NCBI RefSeq assembly: GCF_004305975.1
Contig: NZ_BHZI01000003.1
Location: 1-58,927 of the forward strand
Direction of reading: 5' to 3'
Length of the DNA: 58,927 nt
From: Streptomyces otsuchiensis
Lineage (GTDB): Bacteria > Actinomycetota > Actinomycetes > Streptomycetales > Streptomycetaceae
Part shown: piece after piece, positions 1 to 58,927 of the stretch
How the letters are laid out: every line of letters starts with the position of its first letter
Position numbering within the stretch: the stretch's first letter is position 1
Notes under the pieces: model-generated
What the model was told of the DNA's origin: nothing
Database searches by the model: none
The model's input: the letters and a program-made list of their open reading frames with translations, nothing else
Program-made: the position numbers and the translations under genes

Positions 1-1700
1 CGACCACTCCACCCACCGCCCCAACGCCACCTCACACTCCACCAACGACTCCCGGAACACCGACGACCACACCGCCAGCTCCCGACCCATCCCCACCCAC
101 TGCGAACCCTGACCCGGAAACACGAACACCACGCCACGCCCGCCGTTCGCCACACCCCGCGGGGAACTGGTGGACGTTCCGCCGACCACCGATCCCAGGC
201 CCGCCACCGCGCTCTCGCGGTCTGCGGCCAGCACCACCGCGCGGTGCTCCAGTCCCGCCCGGGACAACAACGACCGACCGACATCGAGCAGTTCAGGACC
301 GGACTCACCCGACACGAACTCGCGCAAGCGGTCGGCCTGGCCCGCGAGGGCCGCGGCTGTCTTCGCCGACACCACCAGCGGCACCGGCCCGGCACCGGCC
401 GAAGGCTCCGGCACCGAGACCGCCACCTGCTCAGCCGGTTCAGCCTGCTCGATGATCACATGCGCGTTGGTGCCACTCATCCCGAACGACGACACACCCG
501 CCCGACGCGCACGACCCGTCTCCGGCCACGCCCGCGCCTCAACCGCCAACTCCACCGCACCAGAAGACCAGTCCACATGCGGAGTCGGCTCGTCCACGTT
601 CAACGTCGCCGGCACCACCCCGGACCGCAACGCCTGCACCATCTTGATCACACCCGCCACACCGGCGGCCGACTGCGTGTGCCCGATGTTCGACTTCACC
701 GATCCCAGCAGCAGCGGCGCACCTTCGCCTCGCCCCTGGCCGTAGGTCGCCAGCAGCGCCTGCGCCTCGATCGGGTCGCCCAGCTTGGTCCCCGTACCGT
801 GCGCCTCCACCACATCCACGTCCGACGCACCGAGACGCGCGTTGGCCAGTGCCTGCCGGATCACCCGCTCCTGCGACGGACCGTTCGGCGCCGTCAGACC
901 GTTCGACGCACCGTCCTGGTTGACAGCCGAACCCCGCACCACAGCCAGCACCTCATGGCCGTGACGCACCGCGTCCGACAACCGCTCCAGCACCAGCACA
1001 CCGACACCCTCGGACCAGCCCGTACCGTCCGCCGCACCCGCGAACGACTTGCACCGGGCGTCCTCGGCGAGGCCGTCCAGGCGGCTGAACTCGGTGAAGA
1101 TGCTCGGGCCCGCCATCACCGTCACACCGCCGGCCAGGGCCATGCCGCACTCGCCGTTGCGCAGTGCCTGCGTCGCGAGATGGATCGCCACCAGCGACGA
1201 CGAGCACGCCGTGTCCACCGTCACCGCGGGCCCTTCCAGGCCGAACGAGTACGCCACCCGGCCGGAGAGCACACTGGTGGCGCCGCCGGTGAGCTGGTAG
1301 CCGGCGATGTCCTCCGGAAGGTCCTTGTCGAGGCCGTAGTACGAGGAGGCGGCGCCCGCGAACACTCCGATCGGCTCACCTGCGACCGCCAGGGGGTCGA
1401 GCCCGGCCGCCTCGAACGCCTCCCATGCCGTCTCCAGCAGCAGTCGCTGCTGGGGGTCCATCGCCAGCGCCTCACGCGGCGAGATGCCGAACAGTTCGGC
1501 GTCGAACCCGGCCACGTCGTCGAGGAATCCGCCGAGCCGCGCGTACGGGAGGTCCGTGGCGTCGATGTCCCAGCCGCGGTCGGTCGGGAAGGCGGTGATG
1601 GCATCCTCCCCGGAGCGCACGAGCCGCCACAGGTCCGCGGGCGACCGGACCCCACCGGGCAGCCGGCAGGACATGCCGACGATCGCGATCGGCTCGCCGA
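1..1700 (-). other. PKS module 5, partial: KS and beginning of AT
   Basis: The KS runs from about 1700 to 450 with TACSSS, EAHGTGT and KSNIGHTQ all intact. The AT begins near base 140 with [12 protein letters not shown] and is cut before its specificity motifs. The opening WVGMG style matches the methylmalonyl ATs in this window better than the malonyl ones (which read RLGMG), but that alone is weak evidence. The reductive domains lie outside the window. Confidence 0.85.
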
Positions 1701-4700
1701 GGTCGGTGGCGGCGCCGGAAGGCGCCTGGTCCGCCGGCCCGATCTCACCGACCAGTTCGGTGCCGAGGTGGTCGGCGAGTGCGGCCGGAGTGGGGTGGTC
1801 GAACAGCAGCGTCGCCGGCAGGCGCAGCCCGGTGGCCGCGTTGATGCGGTTCCGCAGTTCGACGGAGGTCAGGGAGTCGAATCCGAGTTCCTTGAACACC
1901 CGGTCCGGGGCGACCGCGTCCGCGCCCGCGTGCCCGAGGACGGCAGCGGCTTCGGCGCACACCAGCCCGGTGAGCAGGCGGTGCTGTTCGGCGGCGGGCA
2001 GCGCGGCGAGACGTCCGGCGAGTCCCGTTCCGCCGGTGACCGTGCCGGCGGCGCGGCGCGCGGGGGCGCGCACCAGGCCGCGCAGCAGCGCGGGCACGGG
2101 CCGCAGCGTCCGGGCGACGGACACATCGAAGCGCAGCGGCAGCAGGTACGGCAGGCCGGTGGCGTGGGCGGCGTCGAAGAGGGCGAGTCCCTCGTCGGCG
2201 GTGAGCGCGCCGCCGACGCGGGTGGCGCGGGCGAGATCGGCGGTGCCGAGGTTGCCGCTGATGGCGCTCTCCTCGGCCCACAGGCCCCAGCCGAGCGCGG
2301 TCGCGGCGAGTCCCCGGGTACGGCGGTGCTGGGCCAGGGCCTCCAGGAAGGCGTTGGCGGCGGCGTAGTTGGCCTGGCCCGGGGTGCCGAACGCGGAGGA
2401 CGCGGAGGCGTAGACGGTGAAGAGAGCCAGGTCGTGGCCGGCGGTCAGTTCGTGCAGGGCGAGCACGGCAGCGACCTTGGGGCGCAGCACGCCGGTGATC
2501 CGTTCGGGCGTCAGCGCCTCGATGACGCCGTCGTCGGCGACTCCGGCCGCGTGGACCACCCCGGTGAGCGGGTGCTGTGCGGGGAGGGTGGCCAGCAGTT
2601 CGGCCAGTGCCTCCCGGTCGGTGACGTCGCACGCGGCGACTCGTACCCGTGCGCCGAGCGCGCCGAGTTCGTCCGCGAGTTCCTGGGCGCCGGGGGCGGT
2701 CGGCCCGCTCCGGCTGGAGAGGACCAGATGCCGTACGCCCCGGTGTTCGACCAGGTGCCGGGCCAGCAGCGATCCGAGGGCGCCGGTGCCACCGGTGATC
2801 AGGACAGTGCCGTCCGGGTCGAGGGCGCGCGGCAGCGTCAGGACGTTCTTGCCGACGTGGCCACCCGACCCGACGTGCCGGAAGACCTCGGCCGCCAGCC
2901 GGACGTCCCAGGTCCGCGCGGGGAGCAATGTGAGGCGGCCGGTCCGGAAGAGCGTCAGGACCTGCCGCAGCATCTCCTGCAGCCGGTCCGGGCCTGCCTC
3001 GCCGAGGTCGAAGGAGCGGTAGCTGCGGTCACCGAACGAGTCCGGGTCGCGCAGGTCGGCCTTGCCCATCTCCACGAAGCGGCCGCCGGGGGCCAGCAGC
3101 CGTGCCGAGGCGTCGACGAACTCGCCGGCCAGCGCGTTGAGGACGACGTCCACACCGCGTCCGCCGGTGCGCTCCGCGAAGGCCGTCTCGAAGCCCAGGT
3201 CACGCGAGGACGCGAGATGCGCCGCGTCCAGGCCGGTCGCCGGCCACTTGGCCGGCGAGGCGGTCCCGTAGACCTCGGCGCCCAGGTGCCGGGCGATCTG
3301 TACGGCGGCCATCCCCACGCCGCCGGCGGCGGCGTGGACCAGCACCGACTCGCCGGACGCCAGCCCCGCCAGGTCCACCAGCGCGTAGTAGGCGGTCAGG
3401 AAGGCCATCGGCACCGAGGCCGCGTCCGAGAAGGTCCATTCCTGCGGCACCGGCGCCACCATCCGCCGGTCCACCACGGCCAGCGGCCCGAAGCCGCCCT
3501 CGAACAGGCCGAAGACGCGGTCACCCGGCGCGAGGTCCGTGACCCCGGGGCCGACCTCGGCCACGATCCCCGCGGCCTCCGATCCCATGAGGGCCGAGGG
3601 GTCCGGGTACTGCCCGAGTGCGATCAGCACATCGCGGAAGTTGACCCCGGCCGCGCGGACCTCGACCCGTACCTCGCCCGGTGCCAGCGCCGCGGTCGCG
3701 TCGGAGGCGGGGGCGAGGGCCAGGTCGCGGAGGGAGCCGGAGGCCCGGTCGGCGGTGAGTCGCCAGCCCTCGGTGTCGGGCACGGCGAGGGCGCCGGACG
3801 CCGAGGCGCGGGCCAGCCTGGGGGCGAGCAGGGTGCCACCGCGCAGTGCGAGCCAGGGCTCGTCGCCGTCCGCGAGCGCGGCGAGCAGGTCGGCGCCGGT
3901 GCCTGCGTCGGTGCCGGTGCCTGCGTCGGTGCCGGTGTCGGTGTCCAGCAGGACGAATCGGTCGGGGTGCTCGGCCTGCGCGGAGCGTACGAGACCGCCC
4001 ACTGCGGCCCCGGACAGACCGGTGACATCGTCACCGGGTACCGCGGCCACGGCGGCGCGGGTGACCAGCACCAGACGGGACGCGGCGAATCTCTCGTCTG
4101 CCAGCCATGCCTGGATGCCGGCCACGACCTCGGTGACGACGGCCTCGGTGTCCACGTCGGCCGCGTCAGCCACGGGCCACGCGACGACATCGGGTGCGGC
4201 ACCGGAGAACCCGGCCATGAAGGCGGCGAGTCCGTCGGTGGCCGTGGCGAGCGAACCCCGCCGGGCCGGCACCGGCACGGGCGTCCAGTCGAGGATGAAC
4301 AGTGAGTCGTCGTGGCGCGGGCCGACGGCGGTCGCGGTCCGCAGGGTGAGCGTCTCGACGGTGGCGACGGGGGCACCCTCGGGGTCGCTGATCCGCAGCG
4401 TCCAGGCGTCCACGCCCGCGGGTGCCAGGTGGACGCGGGCCCGGGTGGCACCGGTCGCGTGCAGGGTGGCGCCTTCCCAGGCGAAGGGAAGCCCGGCGCG
4501 GTCCGGGTCGAGGCCGGTGAGGTGCAGCGCGGCGTCGAACAGGGCGGGGTGCAGTCCGCAGCGGCCCGCCTCGCGCTGGGCGGACTCGGGCAGCTCGACT
4601 TCGGCGTACAGCTCCTCGCCCGCCCGCCACGCGGCCTTCAGCCCCTGGAAGAGGGGACCGTACGCGAAACCGGCCTCGGTGGCCCGCCCGTAGAAGCCGT

Positions 4701-58600: not shown

Positions 58601-58927
58601 GTGCCATGCCCGCGTGCTGAGCGCCCTGCCCGGTGAACAGGAAGGCGGTCAGGCCGGGCCGCACGGCGCCGGTGAGTACGTCGGGCCCGGTGCGGCCCTC
58701 CTCGACGGCCCGCAGGCCGGCCCGGGCGTTCACCAGGTCGGTGGCGAGGACGACGGCACGGTGCTCGTGGGACTGGCGGGTCGCGCCGAGGGAGTGGGCG
58801 AGGTCGACGAGTTCGGCTGCGGGCTCCGTCCCGTCGTCCAGGAAGGTGCGCAGCCGTTCGGCCTGTGCCCTCAGGGCGGGCGCACTCCGGCCGGACACCG
58901 CGAGCGGCAGCGTGCCGGGGGCGGGCC
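49674..58927 (-). CDS. Modular type I PKS, 3' part (two dehydrating modules); 5' end outside window
   Basis: The frame is open from base 58925 down to the TGA at 49674-49676, about 3080 residues; the start lies beyond the right edge. In order: part of a KS-AT linker (58927-58660), AT 58655-57790, DH 57605-56780, KR 56720-55560, ACP 55340-55130, then KS 55075-53815, AT 53490-52570, DH 52405-51590, KR 51530-50290, ACP 50130-49920, and a C-terminal docking domain 49910-49677. The first AT is malonyl type (HAFH), the second methylmalonyl type (GHSQGE, YASH). Both DHs have HxxxGxxxxP and the Asp, and both KRs are intact and B-type with no ER. It should build a conjugated diene and pass the chain to the terminal PKS, whose ATG is four bases after this stop. 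Confidence 0.97.
49677..49910 (-). other. C-terminal docking domain preceding the terminal PKS
   Basis: Roughly 78 residues follow the last ACP, with a helical stretch ([16 protein letters not shown], then [11 protein letters not shown]) and a terminal [14 protein letters not shown]. The final helix closely resembles the starter-PKS ending [14 protein letters not shown]. It should dock onto the N-terminal coil of the terminal PKS. Confidence 0.85.
52861..53468 (-). repeat. Methylmalonyl-AT tract shared with 47283-47890
   Basis: The partner copy in the upstream PKS gene. Confidence 0.8.
53817..54182 (-). repeat. KS C-terminal tract shared with 48290-48655
   Basis: The partner copy in the upstream PKS gene. 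Confidence 0.8.
55130..58927 (-). other. Antepenultimate-protein module: (KS)-AT(malonyl)-DH-KR-ACP, KS outside window
   Basis: The AT has GHSIGE and VSHAFHS (malonyl). DH reads [12 protein letters not shown], fitting HxxxGxxxxP, with Asp in LFDAALH. The KR has [12 protein letters not shown] and AGYAAAN, an active B-type. The ACP has GFDSL. Predicted unit is an unbranched alkene, C12=C13 counting from the carboxyl end. A short 9-base repeat near 57270-57297 encodes repeated Asp-Ser-Ala in the DH. Confidence 0.92.

Follow-up and report, generated by a model that had tools for sequence, protein, structure and literature searches.

The analysis supported, with a probability of about 95%, the reading of this DNA as the central part of a stambomycin-type biosynthetic gene cluster in another Streptomyces; this kind of cluster is already known, and its product is an antibiotic with a 51-membered ring that carries a sugar. 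The window (the whole stretch of DNA analysed, 58,927 bp) is one entire contig of a Streptomyces genome. The contig termini coincide with the window termini, so the assembly line runs off both edges. All named features lie on the minus strand. Read 5′ to 3′ on that strand, they are the end of a PKS (M19–M20), a four-module TE-terminated PKS, a 3,4-ketoisomerase, an N,N-dimethyltransferase, an ABC pair, a two-component pair, a KSQ starter PKS (loading and three modules) and the start of the next PKS. Six non-PKS genes separate the TE-terminated PKS from the KSQ PKS. The features, with the evidence in brackets, are as follows:

1..7875, minus strand: Pks2 homologue, cut by the contig end, with M4 (KS-AT-DH-ER-KR-ACP) and M5 (KS and the AT start) (Pfam; orthologous to contig C3 of the related genome G204)
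7912..25197, minus strand: Pks1 homologue, with loading KSQ-AT-ACP, M1 KS-AT-DH-KR-ACP, and M2 and M3 KS-AT-KR-ACP (Pfam)
25475..26128, minus strand: LuxR-type response regulator (Pfam Response_reg and GerE)
26118..27494, minus strand: sensor histidine kinase (Pfam HisKA_3 and HATPase_c)
27443..28228, minus strand: ABC-2 type permease (Pfam ABC2_membrane)
28225..29166, minus strand: ABC transporter ATPase, DrrA-like (Pfam)
29180..29209, no strand: perfect palindrome of 30 bp (sequence)
29328..30065, minus strand: dTDP-3-amino-sugar N,N-dimethyltransferase, 245 aa (PDB 3bxo, E 8.7e-77; 3pfg, E 1.2e-71)
30062..30601, minus strand: dTDP-sugar 3,4-ketoisomerase of the FdtA/QdtA family, 179 aa (Pfam FdtA, E 7.9e-44; PDB 2pa7)
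30668..49672, minus strand: Pks9 homologue, with a docking domain, M21–M24 (each KS-AT-KR-ACP) and a thioesterase (Pfam; KR motifs)
49674..58925, minus strand: Pks8 homologue, cut by the contig end, with M19 (AT-DH-KR-ACP) and M20 (KS-AT-DH-KR-ACP) (Pfam)
C87:7982-11487, another contig of the same genome: medium-chain-type acyl-CoA carboxylase beta subunit MccB, for the extender unit, and acyl-CoA ligase (family search, PDB 5INF alignment)

The original prediction placed a KSQ starter PKS and a four-module TE PKS on one strand, and the domains bear this out. The loading KS of the Pks1 homologue carries the motif VDAGQSSS, in which Cys is replaced by Gln (KSQ), and is followed by an AT of the methylmalonyl type and an ACP. 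The Pks1 reading frame is open up to 25293, and the Met at 25197 is a guessed start. The Pks9 thioesterase was recognized by Pfam (E 1.7e-16), and in M24 the catalytic Tyr of the KR is replaced by Arg. The N-terminus of the Pks2 homologue gave a weak match to a docking domain, and the KS of M19 is located on contig C90 of the same genome. The predicted intervening genes (two-component pair, ABC pair, N,N-dimethyltransferase and 3,4-ketoisomerase) were all found by Pfam or PDB matches, and the 179- and 245-residue proteins have the lengths claimed. The dimethyltransferase is of the DesVI/TylM1 type. The ketoisomerase would form the gluco product, not the galacto one, judging from the stambomycin match. 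The ABC ATPase scored 218.8 bits against TIGR01188, under the NCBIfam cut-off of 312. A search for plasmid near-matches with 25475–30601 returned six records, none of which covered 80% of it.

The prediction gave the stambomycin gene set this same order, and the published table agrees. The gene order of the window equals that of SAM23877_7118–7127 for 10/10 genes, two of them cut by the window ends (PMC12402327, Table 3). In G204, the order equals SAM23877_7104–7128 for 25/25 genes, with the accessory genes in the published order and RmlA placed by alignment. Gene content and order were judged against this table, and the sole S. ambofaciens sequence aligned was SamR0483 (PDB 5INF), to which MccB is identical at 491 of 532 positions (92.3%). 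MccB carries Gly161 and Ala423, which have been reported as admitting long acyl chains. The top NCBIfam names of the ligase are fatty-acid--AMP ligases, with scores under their cut-offs. Two P450s, a glycosyltransferase and an aminotransferase were found by family search. The cluster of S. ambofaciens ATCC 23877 (samR / SAM23877_7104–7128) resembles this one in gene content and order and in the division of its PKS genes between loci; it likewise has nine subunits with 25 modules in total, a KSQ, an inactive KR in the last module, MccB, two P450s and amino-sugar genes. Orthologous central regions occur in S. parvus JCM 4069, S. durocortorensis RHZ10 and Streptomyces sp. man185, with 85–93% DNA identity by aligned piece. 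Cluster 1 of Streptomyces sp. A612, an antiSMASH T1PKS, is listed in PMC11336835 with 100% similarity to stambomycin A–D.

Both flanks were reconstructed from G204 (~88% DNA identity) and from contigs of this genome (nine contigs in all). The flanking PKS genes form a single line with one KSQ and one TE, in which nine subunits carry a loading module and 24 extension modules, in agreement with the 25 modules and nine proteins published for the stambomycin PKS (PMC8792006). KS domains, including one KSQ, number 25 in G204 and 25 in the contigs of this genome. As predicted, the DNA order is circularly permuted relative to biosynthesis: Pks1–3 occupy the window and its left side, Pks4–9 the right side and the window, and the line leaves at the left edge and returns at the right.

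This count bears on a related but distinct giant macrolide line, of which BGC26 of S. bambergiensis pSB1 is an example. BGC26 has homologous PKS genes, P450s, glycosyltransferase and aminotransferase, and 7/10 PKS proteins, both P450s and the latter two enzymes are common with stambomycin (PMC12402327), but its ring is predicted to be 67-membered. It has no homologues of the ketoisomerase and dimethyltransferase, of the ABC and two-component genes, or of the carboxyl transferase and acyl-CoA synthetase (PMC12402327), all of which are present here. A line of this type is very improbable, and a 67-membered one was ruled out by the module count of loading plus 24 together with the accessory genes.

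Two separate PKS lines might also abut by chance, one starting from the KSQ gene and one ending in the TE gene, with the six non-PKS genes parting the two groups. G204 does have another TE-bearing PKS gene on the same strand, 21.7 kb past Pks3. This gene (C3 2875–11280) comprises an AMP-ligase loading region, one KS-AT-DH-KR-ACP module and a TE (C3:2944–3555). It is self-contained and lies outside the conserved block, so the single-line reading is unchanged; G204, S. parvus and this genome cease to resemble one another where Pks3 ends. No TE match was obtained in the eight remaining contigs of this genome's nine. Pks4, the first protein of the right-hand group, opens with an ordinary KS and lacks a loading module, and the published stambomycin PKS genes are also split over two loci. 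The chance of two lines is therefore negligible, and this arrangement, which was sought in the flanks, was rejected in favour of one line that has only one KSQ and one TE.

The module details of the stambomycin-type line also agree with the published PKS. According to PMC8792006, module 12 lies in Pks4, the ACP13/KS14 junction falls between Pks4 and Pks5, Pks9 begins with KS21, and the module 24 KR is inactive. Pks4 and M14 (Pks5) are in distinct frames with intervening stops in both genomes, and two G204 subunits shift frame where contigs join. Contig C39 of this genome holds M8–M10, and M7 past its KS is absent from its contig set, with the AT-DH-ER-KR of M7 taken from G204 only. G204 has 8 DH, 4 ER and 24 KR, all of which are intact except the dead KR of M24; its M16 DH was found by frame reading, that of this genome by HMM, and the G204 TEs by unfiltered search. 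AT specificities are motif calls. By these, M5, M7, M17, M20, M21 and M23 of G204 are mm-type, and M13 was assigned mm-type though its motif is not canonical. The AT of M12 is predicted to be atypical in both genomes, with GAAHS where YASH or HAFH is usual.

In the proposed pathway, Pks1 would decarboxylate methylmalonyl-ACP to a propionyl starter, and the chain would pass through Pks1, 2 and 3 (window and left) to Pks4–9 (right and window). The AT of module 12 would load a long alkylmalonate supplied by MccB. One P450 would hydroxylate the chain close to the starter end, which would enable the Pks9 TE to close a 51-membered lactone; the second P450 would perform an internal hydroxylation, and mycaminose would be attached to the macrolide. 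Stambomycins, or congeners very close to them, are therefore what the line is expected to make. The module chemistry gives C72H131NO22/C73H133NO22, with computed [M+2H]2+ of 681.97 and 688.97 against the published stambomycin m/z of 682 and 689. For analogue 39, the computed [M+H+Na]2+ of 697.9486 equals the published calculated value. The formula printed for analogue 37 (C70H128N4O22; PMC5187497) differs from the model by two H, whereas the m/z given for it, 699.4414, fits C70H126N4O22, in accord with the model. The C3 ketone, C7 hydroxyl and C8 methyl of stambomycin (PMC8491158) coincide with the predictions for M24, M22 and M21, respectively. The mass agreement, the order of all 25 G204 genes and the MccB identity together uphold the assignment to the stambomycin cluster or a close relative.

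Divergence of accessory genes or relocation of the regulator might have altered the product on an unchanged scaffold, giving another C26 side chain or leaving out the sugar or a hydroxyl. Residue 191 of the MccB acyl pocket is Ile here, Val in G204 and Leu in S. ambofaciens, the M17 and M20 ATs are recombined, and the LAL has diverged and lies on a different contig. However, MccB is otherwise conserved at the listed pocket positions, the module domains seen show the same conservation, and a YASH motif persists in the ATs of M17 and M20, which makes an altered product rather unlikely. AT domains appear to have been swapped between modules with the predicted product unaltered, and the PKS block seems to have undergone horizontal exchange.

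In this genome, LAL, TEII, RmlB and RmlA lie on contig C36 amid core genes and, in contrast to S. ambofaciens, apart from the PKS; expression may therefore differ. LAL and TEII adjoin MccB in G204, and LAL adjoins MccB in S. parvus (G288) and S. durocortorensis (G534), with ~11 kb separating the ligase from MccB in G288. Adjacency of LAL and TEII to the rest of the cluster is thus absent in this genome; we regard it as a linkage feature and not as product-defining. The orientation of MccB is inverted relative to G204. A plain inversion was not adopted as the cause of the split regulator, because LAL–RmlA is flanked by G204-colinear core genes at a place where G204 has different DNA. Contig C15 of this genome opens with a core gene that G204 has ~6.4 kb downstream of hflX, an arrangement compatible with a possible insertion at hflX.

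Glycosyltransferase activation was also considered. The glycosyltransferase scored 514 bits, above the 440-bit cut-off of the activator-dependent family, and none of the genes in the five cluster-bearing genomes searched exceeded the activator cut-off (343). The P450 beside Pks4 scored 315–326 bits against the activator family, a clear outlier in each of the five genomes, and the other matches listed reached at most 191 bits. It retains the haem Cys as well as the ExxR and AGTETT motifs. Activators of the DesVIII/EryCII type are haem-less. By position, this P450 is probably SamR0478, the C-28 hydroxylase. We tentatively suggest that it may be dual-function, a haem-competent hydroxylase that also activates the mycaminosyltransferase. 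Conceivably, it is an intermediate between ordinary P450s and the haem-less activators.

The 30-bp palindrome lies upstream of the ABC and two-component genes and is identical in the five clusters examined. It is operator-like and a likely candidate operator.

The sister copies of this 25-module PKS, with ~83–92% DNA identity by aligned piece, provide material for studying the evolution of giant assembly lines and for engineering them. The unlinked regulator block, the possible dual P450/glycosyltransferase activator and the conserved 30-bp palindrome are further leads.

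The assembly of the S. otsuchiensis genome comprises 6.15 Mb in 752 contigs, and the window is the entire contig C3 (58,927 bp). Domain and family searches, together with a reading of the KSQ motif, confirmed the gene set and layout of the original prediction. The minus strand carries every gene of the system in the window, in the following order (5' to 3' on that strand).

Minus strand, first: PKS end with M19 (AT-DH-KR-ACP) and M20 (KS-AT-DH-KR-ACP)
Minus strand, second: PKS with four KS-AT-KR-ACP modules, thioesterase (TE) last
Minus strand, third and fourth: 3,4-ketoisomerase, then N,N-dimethyltransferase
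Minus strand, next: ABC ATPase and permease, then histidine kinase and response regulator
Minus strand, next: PKS with the loading KSQ-AT-ACP and three modules
Minus strand, last: PKS start with M4 (KS-AT-DH-ER-KR-ACP) and M5

The flanks and the module count, which the original prediction had proposed as its check, were analyzed in the related genome G204 and in the nine source-genome contigs holding the cluster (C39, C260, C3, C90, C394, C253, C428, C392, and C87). Searches with profiles of window domains detected 25 KS domains in the PKS block of G204 and 25 in the nine contigs, namely one loading KSQ and 24 others in each case. The sole TE of the G204 PKS block closes Pks9, and the sole TE of the nine contigs is that of the window.

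Table. PKS subunits and their extension modules (M1–M24), named after the stambomycin line of S. ambofaciens.
Pks1: loading module, M1–3
Pks2: M4–5
Pks3: M6–10
Pks4: M11–13
Pks5: M14
Pks6: M15–16
Pks7: M17–18
Pks8: M19–20
Pks9: M21–24 and TE

Stop codons separate the Pks4 and M14 frames in both genomes. The catalytic Tyr and the GxxGxxG motif have established roles in KR domains. In G204 and the source genome alike, Arg replaces this Tyr in the M24 KR. Tyr and GxxGxxG are kept in the other 23 KRs of G204 and in 22 of the 23 remaining KRs of the source genome, where the M7 KR lies outside the covered sequence. According to the accessible text of PMC8792006, the stambomycin PKS consists of nine proteins and 25 modules, Pks4 holds module 12, the Pks4/Pks5 boundary is an ACP13/KS14 junction, Pks9 begins with KS21, and the KR of module 24 is inactive.

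The DNA order on the minus strand is Pks4–9, the sugar, ABC and two-component genes, and Pks1–3. Because this order puts Pks4–9 before Pks1–3, the biosynthetic order is circularly permuted relative to the DNA, as had been predicted. The G204 cluster is spread over three contigs. The window alignment follows G204 contig C3 to the contig end and continues into the end of C1 in reverse orientation (positions 42637 and 42640), and the source-genome contig C392 bridges the C1/C4 join. Both joins of the G204 composite (C3, reversed C1, C4) are thus supported.

The S. ambofaciens gene order (PMC12402327 Table 3, as accessible) is RmlA, RmlB, TEII, LAL, carboxyl transferase, acyl-CoA synthetase, glycosyltransferase, aminotransferase, two P450s, six PKS, ketoisomerase, dimethyltransferase, ABC ATPase, permease, kinase, regulator, and three PKS. 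All of the genes listed there (25/25) were found in G204 in identical order. The G204 genes were identified by translation and alignment with source-genome homologues, themselves typed by family search. The frame of the G204 glycosyltransferase is broken near the gene end. The acyl-CoA carboxylase beta subunit MccB of the source genome is identical to PDB 5INF at 491 of 532 residues (92.3%); this entry is among the codes given for SamR0483 in the accessible part of PMC5187497. Source-genome MccB has Gly161 and Ala423. Among 13 checked positions named in that part of the paper, the only difference from SamR0483 is residue 191, which is Leu in S. ambofaciens, Ile in the source genome, and Val in G204.

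Eight DH domains (M1, M4, M7, M11, M13, M16, M19, M20; that of M16 found by frame reading) and four ER domains (M4, M7, M11, M16) were located in G204. With GHS[QL]G plus YASH as the criterion, the methylmalonyl-type ATs of G204 are those of the loading module and M5, M7, M17, M20, M21, and M23. The M13 AT pairs GHSQG with a non-canonical second motif; it was assigned to methylmalonyl, since seven are required by the published scaffold. The M12 AT has GAAHS where YASH or HAFH is expected. A formula model built on the module tally, assuming propionyl as starter, lactonisation, two hydroxylations, and mycaminose as the sugar, gave C72H131NO22 and C73H133NO22, with computed [M+2H]2+ of 681.97 and 688.97; the accessible text of PMC3909215 gives stambomycin m/z 682 and 689. 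For the alkyne analogue 39, the model [M+H+Na]2+ of 697.9486 equals the published calculated value. The formula printed for the azide analogue 37, C70H128N4O22, disagrees with the model, whereas its printed m/z of 699.4414 corresponds to C70H126N4O22, in line with the model (both analogues from accessible parts of PMC5187497). The C3 ketone, C7 hydroxyl, and C8 methyl of the published C1–C11 region (PMC8491158, accessible text) sit where M24, M22, and M21 predict. This test was not blind, since the formula-required counts were derived before the domain tally and the M13 call uses the published structure.

A further PKS gene lies in G204 (C3:2875-11280) on the same strand, 21.7 kb past Pks3. 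Its product has a loading domain of AMP-binding type, a pair of carrier domains, a single KS-AT-DH-KR module, and a TE of its own. The end of Pks3 is the limit of similarity among G204, S. parvus, and the source genome on that side, and S. parvus gave only PKS cross-matches (64–78%) to this gene. We take it as a neighbouring PKS separate from the cluster line. An extra KS was found on the opposite side of the G204 cluster (composite 182559-183701).

The glycosyltransferase (L044:12301-13545, contig C87) scored 514 bits against an activator-dependent family model (cut-off 440). No dedicated activator was found in the accessible published stambomycin gene list or among the homologues identified here. 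In the five genomes searched, the P450 adjoining Pks4 (L044:16970-18214 in the source genome) scored 315–326 bits to a P450-derived activator model; no gene exceeded the cut-off of 343, and all other matches listed had at most 191 bits. By its position, this P450 is inferred to be the counterpart of SamR0478, the reported C-28 hydroxylase (PMC8792006, accessible text). We float the idea that it doubles as a candidate glycosyltransferase activator. A samR0479 mutant made 50-deoxy compounds without mycaminose, and the accessible text of PMC8792006 draws no link from this to activation. Linearity may be the simple cause of the missing sugar.

The ketoisomerase had three named genome-contig matches with 79–81% protein identity, all in Streptomyces (S. 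parvus JCM 4069, S. durocortorensis RHZ10, and Streptomyces sp. man185). In a family-level sample of 394 genomes, nine matched it at E <= 1e-20, with 88–100% identity in three (source genome, G204, and the S. parvus genome G288) and 42–48% in six. At E <= 1e-40, 5 of 392 genomes drawn from the genus matched, four at 91–100% (source genome included) and one at 46%. Upstream of the ABC and two-component genes, at 29180-29209, is a perfect palindrome of 30 bp whose sequence is identical in five loci (window, G204, S. parvus, S. durocortorensis, and man185). As a guess, it is a putative binding site for the response regulator or the LAL regulator. Stambomycin-like clusters beyond S. ambofaciens are already in print: the accessible texts report a 100% antiSMASH stambomycin match in Streptomyces sp. 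A612 (PMC11336835) and partial matches in strain NELs-40 (PMC13260292). Listings of open-licence papers showed neither an unlinked regulator nor an activator role for a P450.

The source-genome contig C87 carries miaA, dapF, and a RelA/SpoT-like gene, all named by eye, and then hflX, followed by MccB, the ligase, glycosyltransferase, aminotransferase, two P450s, and Pks4. MccB, beside hflX (C87 1-9607), is inverted relative to G204, G288, and the related genomes G495 and G534. The hflX-MccB junction was seen in one assembly, of a fragmented genome. Contig C15 has its start about 340 bp ahead of a match to core sequence that lies about 6.4 kb downstream of hflX in G204. LAL, TEII, RmlB, and RmlA are separated from the PKS block, lying on another contig, C36 (8106-15245). 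They are flanked there by G204-colinear genes (ung/SDR on one side, a GntR-type gene on the other), between which G204 has no such block. LAL adjoins MccB in G204, G288, and G534; in G495 the two are on separate contigs, which may or may not be linked. The left cluster flank of the source genome (C39 13941-26892: subtilase-like ORF, repeat proteins, TetR, SDR, and PanD-like gene, named by eye) differs from that of G204. In S. parvus, about 11 kb absent from G204 separates the acyl ligase from MccB (G288 contig C9 31811-43238).

The source-genome M20 AT shares 89.2% identity with the M21 AT of that genome and 75.8% with the G204 M20 AT, and the closest to the source-genome M17 AT is the G204 M20 AT (83.8%). 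M20 and M21 lie in the window at about 44900-55076 and M17 on C90. Judging from these identities, and with G204 as the reference, exchange or conversion between modules seems to have affected the ATs of M17, M20, and M21, with no change in the predicted substrate.

Identity to G204 at fourfold-degenerate sites was compared across source-genome contigs, C3, C39, and C87 among them. It was 48–62% in nine core genes, 44–59% in LAL, TEII, RmlB, and RmlA, and 65–83% in 17 PKS-block genes. The regulator and sugar block has a core-like distance to G204. The PKS block appears, from its higher identity (65–83% versus 48–62% in the core), to have been exchanged horizontally between the lineages later than the split of their core genomes.
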